A DNA stretch of 61,352 bases from Thermoclostridium sp. (GTDB lineage Bacteria; Bacillota; Clostridia; DSM-8532), in assembly GCA_017995215.1 (NCBI GenBank), contig JAGOJH010000003.1, forward strand, positions 1 through 61,352. Reading direction: 5' to 3'. The notes under the pieces are model-generated. The model made no database searches, was not told where the DNA came from, and was given only the letters and a program-made list of their open reading frames with translations. How positions within the stretch are numbered: position 1 is the first letter of the stretch; each line of letters starts with the position of its first letter. Of the stretch, positions 10,889 through 61,171 are shown one piece after another. The position numbers were made by a program, and so were the translations under genes.

Positions 10889-12937
10889 ATGAGCATAGGG
10901 AAAAAAATCCTGTTTGCACTTCTGGGATTGGCCCTGCTGGTTACCATCCTGCTGGGGGTGGTTTCTTTTTACGGTTTTTTTGATATCCGGGCAACCTTTC
11001 AGAAGGAAAACAAGGCTGCCATTGACGAACTCTATAAGAAAAATGTCGCTGAGATAACCAGAAACAGCTCCAAGCTGGCCATTTCTCTGGCAAACTACAA
11101 TGCTCAAACGATTAATATTGATTTTGAAAGAATCATCGGAGAAATAAAAACCATGAAGGGGGATATCGAAACGCTCTATCGAAATGGCGGAACCAGCGAT
11201 TACACCCCCATCAGCCGATATGAGGAATATATTATTTCACAGGCGGCAAGCCCGAAAACGGAGGAGGTTGACCGGACACTGAAATATTTAAGCTCAGCCA
11301 CCTCTATGTTTGACAACATTCTTGACATTGAGCCAAAAATTTCTCTGGCTTACATCGTGCTTGAAAACGGGATGGTGATTTCCAGCACAGACACCTTTTA
11401 TGAGGCCGTCGAAAAGGCGGATATGCGCACAAGAGACTGGTACAAGGGTGCCGTGGCGGCAGGGGAGGTCAACTGGTCGGATCTATACAAGGGCACGGAT
11501 TCCAGAAGCTATATCACCTGTGCCACGCCGGTTTATGACCCGAATGGCGTTCTCTTCGGGGTGCTTGCCTTTGACCTTCGCGTATCTGAAATTTCACAGA
11601 AGGTGCTGGATACGGAAAACAGCTCCTACATCGCTTCTTTTATCATGAACAGAGACGGACATCTGCTGCTCGGATCAAAAGGGCTGGAGGAAATCGAAAA
11701 AGAGCCGTATTATCAAAAGCTGATTGAAAGCATTGATTTAAAAGCCGCCCAATCGGATTATTATGCCGACGAAAGCAGCATCATCGGTTATGCTCCGATT
11801 CAATCCACAGATTGGATTTTGGTGACAGTACTGGATTATGATCTGATGATGGCGCCGGTGCACTCCGTTGCCCAATCCGTATCCGATACAGGGACCAAAA
11901 TGGAGCAGGTGATTACAAATGAAACGCAAAAGGTGTTCCTGATTTTTCTACTTATTCTGCTGATACTGCTGCTCTTTGTATGGTGGTCTTCGACCCGGCT
12001 CAGCAAGTCCATCACCAAACCGGTGGAAGCACTGGCCGACGGAGCAAAGGTGATAGGGGGGGGAAACCTTGACTATGAATTCGCTAACCTGGGCCCAGAT
12101 GAGATAGGGATGCTGGCATCCACCTTTAACAGCATGACCATCCGTCTGAAGGAGTATACGGATCAGGTTGCCAGGGATGCAGCTGAAAAACAGAGGCTGG
12201 AGTCTGAACTTGACGTAGCCAGGAGCATACAGCTTGGTATACTGCCCGGGAAGATGGAATGTCCGGGTTATGATATCTCCGGCATGATGCTTCCCGCCAG
12301 GGAGGTCGGAGGCGATTTCTATGATTTCTTCCCGGTGGGCGAAGATAAGCTTTGCCTTGTGGTTGCCGATGTTTCCGGGAAGGGAATGGGTGCCGCGCTG
12401 TTTATGACCATCGCGAAGATTATCATCAAGACGGTGGCCCAGGCAAACAAAGTATCAGTGGACGAGCTGCTTCGTATAGCCAACAACCTGCTCTGTCAGG
12501 AAAACCCCGCAGAGCTATTTGTGACAGCCTATGTGGCAATCCTGGATATTGCTACAGGAACAGTTTCCTATGCCTGTGCAGGCCATAATCCCCCTGTGAT
12601 CGGCCACAGCGATGGCACGGTTGAGTTTTTACCCGTTAAGCACAAGCTTCCCCTTGCGGCGATGGAGGAAACCAAATATCCTATCATGCATGCGCAGCTT
12701 CTGGAGGGAGAAAGCTTTATTCTCTATACTGATGGCGTGACCGAAGCAACCAACGCAGAAAATGAACTATACGGAGATGCACGTTTGCTGGAGGCAGCAA
12801 GGAAGCTTCACGGGCACACGGCACACGAAATGATTGGCGGAATCAAGGCTAATGTGGACCATTTTGTCAGCCGGGCTCCACAGTTTGATGACATCACCCT
12901 TGTAGCAATCCGGAGAATCACAAAGGAAGGGACATAA
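10889..12937 (+). CDS. Cache-HAMP-SpoIIE (PP2C-type) protein phosphatase
   Basis: A 682-residue membrane phosphatase with GAGGAGG before its start. Membrane spans at about residues 7-29 and 348-370 enclose an extracellular dCache-type sensor domain. A HAMP linker (about 370-425) and a short coiled coil lead to the PP2C/SpoIIE domain. Metal-binding motifs are intact: GGDFYDFF (about 473), DVSGKGMGAALF (about 493), GHNPP, YTDGVTEA (about 613) and DDITLVAI near the end. It probably dephosphorylates the STAS protein of the same operon in response to an outside ligand. It joins directly to the next gene, whose ATG follows the TAA without a gap. Confidence 0.92.
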   Translation: MSIGKKILFALLGLALLVTILLGVVSFYGFFDIRATFQKENKAAIDELYKKNVAEITRNSSKLAISLANYNAQTINIDFERIIGEIKTMKGDIETLYRNGGTSDYTPISRYEEYIISQAASPKTEEVDRTLKYLSSATSMFDNILDIEPKISLAYIVLENGMVISSTDTFYEAVEKADMRTRDWYKGAVAAGEVNWSDLYKGTDSRSYITCATPVYDPNGVLFGVLAFDLRVSEISQKVLDTENSSYIASFIMNRDGHLLLGSKGLEEIEKEPYYQKLIESIDLKAAQSDYYADESSIIGYAPIQSTDWILVTVLDYDLMMAPVHSVAQSVSDTGTKMEQVITNETQKVFLIFLLILLILLLFVWWSSTRLSKSITKPVEALADGAKVIGGGNLDYEFANLGPDEIGMLASTFNSMTIRLKEYTDQVARDAAEKQRLESELDVARSIQLGILPGKMECPGYDISGMMLPAREVGGDFYDFFPVGEDKLCLVVADVSGKGMGAALFMTIAKIIIKTVAQANKVSVDELLRIANNLLCQENPAELFVTAYVAILDIATGTVSYACAGHNPPVIGHSDGTVEFLPVKHKLPLAAMEETKYPIMHAQLLEGESFILYTDGVTEATNAENELYGDARLLEAARKLHGHTAHEMIGGIKANVDHFVSRAPQFDDITLVAIRRITKEGT

Positions 12938-58527: not shown

Positions 58528-61032
58528 ATGAAAAAGCTGGTCATTGGAATCCTGGCGCATGTGGATGCAGGTAAAACAACATTATCGGAGAGTTTGCTTT
58601 ATATAAGCGGAAAAATTAGAAAACCAGGCAGAGTGGACAGCAAGGATGCCTATTTGGATCACTTTAAGCTTGAAAGGGCAAGAGGAATTACGATTTTTTC
58701 CAAACAGGCGGTGTTTACTGCAGGGGATATACAAATTACACTGCTGGATACCCCTGGCCATGTTGATTTTTCCGCTGAAATGGAAAGAGCCCTGCGCATT
58801 CTGGATTATGCAATATTAGTGATAAGCGGTACAGATGGCGTGCAGGGGCACACCAAAACCCTGTGGCGTCTTTTGAGTACCTATCGAATCCCCGTTTTTA
58901 TCTTCGTCAATAAAATGGATCAAAATGAACCCGATCCCCAAAAGCTGATGGAGGAAATGAAGGAGCAGCTGGGTGATGGTTGCGTTCATTTCGCACAGGA
59001 TCATACAGCTGTTTTTTATGATCAGTTGGCCATGTGCGATGAATTACTGATGGAATCCTATCTGGAAACTGGACATGTGACCAATGTACAGATCAAAAAA
59101 TCGATTCGGGAATGCAAGGCCTTTCCGTGTTATTTTGGTTCTGCGTTAAAGCTTGACGGGGTTGAAGCCTTCCTCAAAGGAATTCTGAACTATGCCGAAA
59201 CGCCTGCCTGGCCGGAACAGTTTGGTGCCAGGGTATTGAAAATAAGCAGAGATGATCAGGGAAACCGCCTGACTCATATGAAAATTACAGGAGGAAGCCT
59301 GAAGGTAAAGGACTCTCTATCAAATGGAGTTTGGGAAGAGAAGGTTCACCAGATCCGAATCTACTCAGGGCATAAATTTGAAGCTGTGAATGAAGCTGAA
59401 GCAGGCAGTGTTTGTGCTGTCATAGGCCTAAGCTTGACAAAACCGGGAGAGGGCCTGGGGATGGAGGAAACCTCAGCATCGCCTCTGCTGGAGAGCGTAT
59501 TCACTTACCGAATTCGGCTTCCGGAGGGCTGTGATCCAAGGGCGATGCTTCCAAAACTGCGCCAGATAGAGGAAGAAGATCCGCAGCTTCATATTGTATG
59601 GGATGAGCAGCTTGCAGAAGTTCATGCTCAGATCATGGGTGAAGTACAGGTTGAGATTCTGCAAAGCATGATACAGGAACGGTTTGGTATCGATGTGGCC
59701 TTCGATGCAGGTAAAATCGTATATAAGGAGACTATTGCAAAACCCGTGGAGGGGGTGGGCCATTTTGAGCCACTGCGCCATTATGCAGAGGTTCATCTGC
59801 TGATGGAGCCCGGGGGACGGGGCAGTGGCCTTCTGTTTGCGGTAGATTGCAGTGATGATATCCTGGCGAAAAACTGGAAGAATCTAATCCTGTCTCATTT
59901 GGAAGAAAAGGTTCACCGAGGTGTTCTTACCGGGTCACCGATTACGGATATGAAAATAACGCTGGTGTCTGGCCGGGCGCACAACAAGCATACAGAGGGC
60001 GGAGATTTCAGGGAAGCAACCTGGCGTGCCGTGCGTCAGGGTTTAAAGGAAGCCGAGTCCATATTGCTGGAGCCCTGGTATACCTTTCAGCTGGAAGTTC
60101 CGGAAAAAATGGTGGGCCGCGCCATGTCCGACATTGAGCAGTTTCATGGGATATGCCATGTATCAAAAATAGAAGGGGAACTGGCTGTTCTTGAAGGGGA
60201 AGCCCCTGTTATTACCCTGCGCAATTATCAGAAGGATGTGATGGCCTATACGAAAGGTCAGGGCAGGCTTTTTTGCAGCCTGAAAGGGTACCAGCCCTGC
60301 CATAATTCAAAAGAGGTTATCGAAAGGTTTGGATATGATTCCGAAAGGGATTTAAACAATCCAACCAATTCGGTTTTTTGTGCCAATGGCACCAGCTTTT
60401 TAGTTGATTGGAACGAAGTAAAGGAATACATGCATCTTCCAGGCTGCTTTCAGCAAAAAACAGATATACAGGTAACGGGAACTGCGAAGGCTTCATATAG
60501 CATTCAAAATTGGCTTCCCCCGGAGGAGGTTGACAGAATCCTAAACCAAACCTCCTATGCCAATCAGGGAAGAAAATCTGTGTGGACGAAAAAAAGAACA
60601 ACAGCTGAAAGCTTTCATAAACCAGTTACGTACAAGGGAGAAATCAGAGCAGCCAGGGATCAATATCTACTCGTAGATGGCTATAATGCCATCTTCGCAT
60701 GGCCGGAATTGAAGGAACTCGCTGAAGAGAGCCTGGATGTCGCCCGCTCAGAGCTGCTCGATTCACTGATAAAATACCAGGGGGTTCGAAAGTGCCAGGT
60801 GATCGTTGTTTTTGATGCCTACCGTGTTCAGGGGCATGCCGAAGAAATTGTCGATTATGGAAGTATTCATGTTGTGTATACAAGAGAGGCACAGACGGCT
60901 GATCAATATATTGAAAGATTTGCTCATGACAACCAGAGAAAGTATGATATCACCGTTGCAACATCCGATGGATTACAGCAGATCATTATCAGGGGGGGCG
61001 GGCAGTGCGGTAATGTCTGCAAGAGAGCTTAA
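58528..61032 (+). CDS. TetM-like ribosomal-protection GTPase fused to a NYN (YacP/Rae1-like) nuclease, frameshifted at the end
   Basis: An 834-residue protein; ATG 58528 is preferred to TTG 58465, which lacks a ribosome site. Residues 1-650 match ribosomal-protection/EF-G-like GTPases (TetM group): G1 AHVDAGKTT, switch GITIF, G3 DTPGHVD, G4 NKMD, G5 GSALK, and domain IV-V segments. From about residue 713 a NYN/PIN-like RNase begins (LLVDGYNAIFAW, VVFDAY, TADQYIERF, TSDGLQQ), like YacP/Rae1, a ribosome-bound endonuclease. A TetM is normally about 640 residues. The frame ends early: after IIIRGGG a G7 run at 60992-60998 shifts out of the true frame, which continues as AGSAVMSAREL to 61171. The fusion links ribosome binding with RNA cutting. 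Confidence 0.85.
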   Translation: MKKLVIGILAHVDAGKTTLSESLLYISGKIRKPGRVDSKDAYLDHFKLERARGITIFSKQAVFTAGDIQITLLDTPGHVDFSAEMERALRILDYAILVISGTDGVQGHTKTLWRLLSTYRIPVFIFVNKMDQNEPDPQKLMEEMKEQLGDGCVHFAQDHTAVFYDQLAMCDELLMESYLETGHVTNVQIKKSIRECKAFPCYFGSALKLDGVEAFLKGILNYAETPAWPEQFGARVLKISRDDQGNRLTHMKITGGSLKVKDSLSNGVWEEKVHQIRIYSGHKFEAVNEAEAGSVCAVIGLSLTKPGEGLGMEETSASPLLESVFTYRIRLPEGCDPRAMLPKLRQIEEEDPQLHIVWDEQLAEVHAQIMGEVQVEILQSMIQERFGIDVAFDAGKIVYKETIAKPVEGVGHFEPLRHYAEVHLLMEPGGRGSGLLFAVDCSDDILAKNWKNLILSHLEEKVHRGVLTGSPITDMKITLVSGRAHNKHTEGGDFREATWRAVRQGLKEAESILLEPWYTFQLEVPEKMVGRAMSDIEQFHGICHVSKIEGELAVLEGEAPVITLRNYQKDVMAYTKGQGRLFCSLKGYQPCHNSKEVIERFGYDSERDLNNPTNSVFCANGTSFLVDWNEVKEYMHLPGCFQQKTDIQVTGTAKASYSIQNWLPPEEVDRILNQTSYANQGRKSVWTKKRTTAESFHKPVTYKGEIRAARDQYLLVDGYNAIFAWPELKELAEESLDVARSELLDSLIKYQGVRKCQVIVVFDAYRVQGHAEEIVDYGSIHVVYTREAQTADQYIERFAHDNQRKYDITVATSDGLQQIIIRGGGQCGNVCKRA

Positions 61033-61171
61033 AGCAGAAATTGAACGTGTGAATGATGGTATCATGCAAGCCTATCAGGAAAAGCAGGCGGCACTCCGGA
61101 ATTATTTACAGGATGCATTACCAGTTGAAACGAAACAACAGATAGAAGAATTTCTGAAGGAAGAAGAATAA
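60999..61171 (+). pseudogene. Out-of-frame C-terminal end of the NYN domain
   Basis: If one G is removed from the G7 run at 60992-60998, the GTPase-NYN protein continues as RGAGSAVMSARELKAEI and on through a 58-residue helical tail ending KEEE at TAA 61169-61171. The SA-R-E-L motif is the usual end of the YacP nuclease core. This tail therefore belongs to the upstream gene. A sequencing error, a recent mutation, or slippage-dependent reading are the options. Confidence 0.8.

Follow-up and report, generated by a model that had tools for sequence, protein, structure and literature searches.

A Rae1-like NYN domain carried on an EF-G-type GTPase across Clostridia, with a frame-broken copy in Thermoclostridium

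Rae1 (YacP) of Bacillus subtilis is an endoribonuclease of the ribosomal A site that acts on mRNA (PMC6613710). It stands alone, at about 170 aa, whereas the NYN domain described here is joined to a GTPase. Tet(M) and Tet(O), like the protein studied here, have an EF-G-like five-domain GTPase and a C-terminal extension. Tet proteins that carry a YacP-like NYN domain were described from ten Clostridiales species by Atkinson 2015, with the suggestion that the RNase plays a part in resistance (PMC4342817). Those proteins have the same domain order as our gene: the GTPase-NYN fusion was already published in 2015 and was not discovered in our window (the whole stretch of DNA analyzed, 61,352 nucleotides of a Thermoclostridium sp. 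genome). Compared with that work on Tet resistance proteins of ten species, we find a distinct sister subfamily present in roughly one in three genomes sampled from the class, a fusion that by gene content replaces Rae1, and a frame-broken copy in the window. What is added here is the Rae1 replacement pattern, the sister-subfamily placement, the boundary where the unfused sisters end, and a predicted disordered linker.

At the level of the gene, a first-pass annotation had proposed a TetM-like ribosomal GTPase and a NYN nuclease in one chain, and the ORF and its Pfam domains bear this out (Table 1). The product has 834 aa and ends, as assembled, in ...IIIRGGGQCGNVCKRA before the stop. It is a translational GTPase of the EF-G/Tet branch, with the G1-G4 motifs and EF-G domains II to V all present. 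The G domain has a complete motif set (AHVDAGKT, RGITI, DTPGH, NKMD, and FGSAL), conserved or invariant in the alignment of relatives, and domain IV displays the highest conservation within the whole protein. Among the features of the C-terminal extension, two Cys and two His are kept at 60298-60447 (C591, H592, C618, and H636 in the numbering of L099, the intact L. phytofermentans protein), possibly a metal site.

The NYN_YacP domain (PF05991) lies at residues 714-825 of the ORF and scores 142.3 bits against a gathering score of 24.6. Its four acidic residues, in DGYN, FDAY, TAD, and TSD, are invariant over the aligned relatives, and the aspartates are the same as in B. subtilis Rae1/YacP (structures 5mq8 and 5mq9; sequence match E 6e-19). 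Intact fused relatives span the whole profile in a single frame; the window copy is broken at position 114 of 166. The predicted model of L099 (mean pLDDT 79, pTM 0.61) presents an EF-G-like body, with EF-G as the top PDB matches, a linker of ~70 residues, and a folded NYN domain. The linker is predicted to be disordered, with a pLDDT of 31-51 over residues 641-710.

Table 1. Features of the fused gene (positions in the window, residues of the ORF)
Feature	Position	Strand	Remarks
GTPase-NYN fusion ORF, frame-broken close to its end	58528..61032	+	At most 73% identity to intact proteins of ~880 aa
G domain, residues 4-224	58537..59199	+	Pfam GTP_EFTU, E 6e-53
EF-G domains II and III	59221..59703	+	Pfam EF-G_D2 residues 232-308, EFG_III residues 323-392
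EF-G domain IV, tip loop GRAHxKHTEGGDFR	59710..60054	+	Pfam EFG_IV residues 395-509, E 1e-19
EF-G domain V	60064..60312	+	Pfam EFG_C residues 513-595, E 2e-17
C-terminal extension, residues 597-640	60316..60447	+	Common to unfused sisters, which stop just past the YMH motif
Variable linker, residues 641-712	60448..60663	+	Low conservation; predicted disordered in intact homologue L099
NYN_YacP nuclease domain, first two thirds, with D717, D763, D792, D814	60667..61002	+	Profile 1-114 of 166, E 2.6e-42
G7 run, point of frame loss	60992..60998	+	Relatives in frame here, 12 with G6
Remainder of NYN domain and tail, +1 frame (GAGSAVMSAREL...FLKEEE, then stop)	60995..61171	+	Profile 112-164

The same GTPase-NYN order was sought in other Clostridia and found widely, so the homologues are not all separate genes. 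Intact fused copies of 845-956 residues occur in dozens of genera, including Desulfosporosinus, Alkaliphilus, Acetivibrio, Oscillibacter, Anaerostipes, and Butyrivibrio, and in Lachnospiraceae, among many others. The fusion was present in 100 of the 291 genomes of the class, and none of these 100 had an additional standalone NYN_YacP, a mutual exclusion that partly reflects shared ancestry, which inflates the count, and to which we therefore attach no probability. One of the carriers had two NYN_YacP copies, both fused. Genomes lacking the fusion had a standalone NYN or none. NYN_YacP was found outside an intact fusion in 88/291 genomes; in a few of these cases, a contig end or a frame break had split a fusion. 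In the genome of the window (92% completeness), the fusion is the sole NYN_YacP locus. Judged by these gene contents, the fusion replaces standalone Rae1 in its carriers, which is good evidence that the NYN part retains the job of Rae1. The unfused GTPase occurs in 17/291 genomes, ten with NYN_YacP elsewhere and seven without any, and these seven indicate a separate function for the GTPase.

The fusion is common in Clostridia and old. It is nearly absent on plasmids: only 2 of 1324 matching plasmid records cover 80% of the query. There was no conserved gene neighborhood over 69 loci, with the commonest neighbor family at five. As far as its distribution tells, the gene behaves as a core gene, running through whole families and mostly chromosomal. 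Near the gene, we obtained no Rfam match for a regulatory RNA, and the promoter and terminator scan gave no more than shuffled sequence does.

In the GTPase tree, the fused proteins cluster together, sister to unfused proteins, and fused and unfused GTPases form a clade (support 0.96) separate from TetM, TetO, TetS, TetW, and OtrA. On this tree, the GTPase half is placed as a sister subfamily distinct from TetM. The unfused sisters have frames of 645-669 residues and stop right after the C-terminal extension, just before the linker. The fusion probably arose once; in the GTPase tree, the node uniting all fused proteins lacks a meaningful support value. In the NYN-domain tree, the fused domains mostly cluster; two standalone domains fall within this cluster, and the two most divergent fused domains lie apart from it. 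Those two standalone domains (L185 in G648 and L186 in G666) come from genomes that also have an unfused GTPase, and a secondary fission of the fusion is a possible origin for them.

Regarding function, our preferred reading is a Clostridial version of Rae1 (YacP) that rides on a translational GTPase and acts at A-site mRNA. We infer this function and hold it to be rather probable; the role at A-site mRNA is reasonable given what Rae1 does and that the fusion takes the place of the standalone gene. Atkinson 2015 leads to another reading: a ribosomal protection protein against tetracycline –or another A-site drug– that dislodges the drug and has an added RNase that aids resistance (PMC4342817). 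The fold and the G domain are indeed those of Tet proteins, and tet_protect (NF012153) is the best NCBIfam model for the GTPase. However, it scores 411 bits against an equivalog cut-off of 775, identity to TetM/O/S/W is about 30%, the branch falls outside the TetM/O/S/W/OtrA clade, and the gene has the core-gene behavior described above, through whole families, nearly without plasmids, and without conserved neighbors. The C-terminal extension also differs from that of Tet(M) and Tet(O). Loop III at the tip of domain IV reads GRAHxKHTEGGDFR, compared to YYSPVSTPADFR in TetM; it has the same length and lacks YSPVS. Since TetM retains activity with the S508A/P509A/V510A substitutions in this loop (PMC4750697), we grade tetracycline protection by the fused protein as unlikely and go no further, and a resistance protein with an added RNase seems improbable to us. 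Thus, "TetM-like" holds for the EF-G/Tet-type fold as a distant likeness, and is not supported in the functional sense. It is also quite unlikely that the nuclease cuts rRNA or tRNA, for maturation or inactivation, with the GTPase as the targeting part. This was the role first proposed for NYN domains (rRNA/tRNA maturation, cited in PMC4342817), but the closest studied relative, Rae1, cuts mRNA in the A site (PMC6613710), and the fusion sits in the place of Rae1 in genomes. NCBI labels WP_320690501.1, an intact homologue from Monoglobus, generically as 'translation factor GTPase family protein', which leaves the nuclease unmentioned.

The first-pass annotation had also placed a frame break at the GGGGGGG run, with a normal YacP ending beyond it, and both claims hold; the tail past the run is conserved among relatives. 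Positions 112-164 of the NYN_YacP profile fall at 60995-61153 in the +1 frame, with no stop until 61171. Chance is excluded, because two adjoining pieces of one profile in different frames join exactly at the G7 and intact relatives have one frame there. The frame is continuous at this site in all 80-odd intact relatives covering the position, and none is shifted. Twelve of them, mostly Desulfosporosinus-like, have a G6 with the same Arg-Gly codons, and the others have G2 to G5. The nearest relative (L097, same genus, 84% identity over this part) reads IIIRGAGSAVMSARELKAEIERVND in frame; the window spreads these residues over two frames.

For the out-of-frame tail, pN/pS was about 0.24-0.42 in comparisons with five relatives, in each case well below 1, so by this measure the tail is still under purifying selection. 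We saw no further decay in the gene 5′ of the run or in the tail 3′ of it. Judged from the alignments, the lesion is a lone extra G, either very recent or an error that came from the assembly or a minor strain. All four acidic residues lie upstream of it, and the last ~55 residues are lost, the conserved SA..L motif among them. In B. subtilis Rae1, R166P and a deletion at nt 469-473 act as loss of function (PMC6613710), and both sit later in the domain than the window lesion. By analogy, the gene as assembled would yield a GTPase that lacks a functional nuclease.

Is this a strain truly without the nuclease, keeping the GTPase function alone? The extra G stands in the assembled sequence, and other genomes have unfused GTPases without NYN. 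Moreover, there are eight runs of G/C of at least seven in 264 kb of the same genome, and besides this one, four are inside long ORFs, so the assembly has not broken such runs wholesale. Against this, the absence of other decay and the purifying selection on the tail mean that any loss must be very recent, and one homopolymer G in a draft assembly of 182 contigs, as this one is, is a common error. Altogether, we consider a true loss somewhat unlikely. A slippage site at the G7, setting the ratio of full-length to nuclease-dead protein, is far less probable still. The first-pass annotation had raised slippage, and homopolymers can slip; twelve relatives do have a G6 at the same place. However, run length varies from G2 to G6 among relatives, every one of them in frame, no other relative has a shift at this place, and access to the tail requires a +1 shift or the loss of one G. 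The lack of conservation of the run among relatives led us to reject programmed slippage at this site.

Two further fused genes are interrupted. One (L179, G473:C2:125900-129000) is split by a frame change close to an A7 run near residue 565; together with the G7 break at another place, it fits sporadic homopolymer indels and speaks against a conserved slippage signal. The other (L165, G627:C1:1370200-1373600) comes from a single-contig genome and carries an in-frame TAG at about residue 265. A hexamer-model scan over the 264 kb, meant to estimate the frameshift rate of the assembly, flagged 34 candidates; many were shadow frames facing real genes, and the known break was missed, which makes the estimate uninformative. 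In the window itself, a G8 at 12056-12063 lies inside a 682-aa ORF (10889-12937) and is a possible control for homopolymer errors. The frame-broken copy is only a caution on homopolymers in draft genomes.

Returning to the fusion as a carried Rae1, the GTPase half would bind ribosomes whose A site is empty, docking with GTP in the factor site in the manner of EF-G and Tet proteins. A flexible linker of ~70 residues could then let the NYN domain reach and cut mRNA within or close to the A site, and GTP hydrolysis would release the protein from the ribosome. Both the cut site and this order of events are proposed here, and stalled ribosomes would be the trigger. The weak point of the mechanism is that domain IV and the NYN domain cannot share the A site simultaneously, so a hand-over step is needed: either domain IV would have to move out before the cut, or the cut would be made on a different ribosome. 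The literature searched contained no experimental work on any fused protein.

More tentatively, and as a possibility we lean slightly away from, Rae1 may have become a GTPase-delivered nuclease across many Clostridia, in which recognition of the empty A site, hand-over of the tethered NYN domain, and GTP-gated mRNA cutting would make up a single-chain stall surveillance factor. If much of Clostridia has no Rae1 other than the fusion, A-site mRNA cleavage would be coupled there to a translational GTPase. This would offer a direct way to study the targeting of a ribosome-associated nuclease, and would correct the labeling of such genes as tetracycline resistance proteins.
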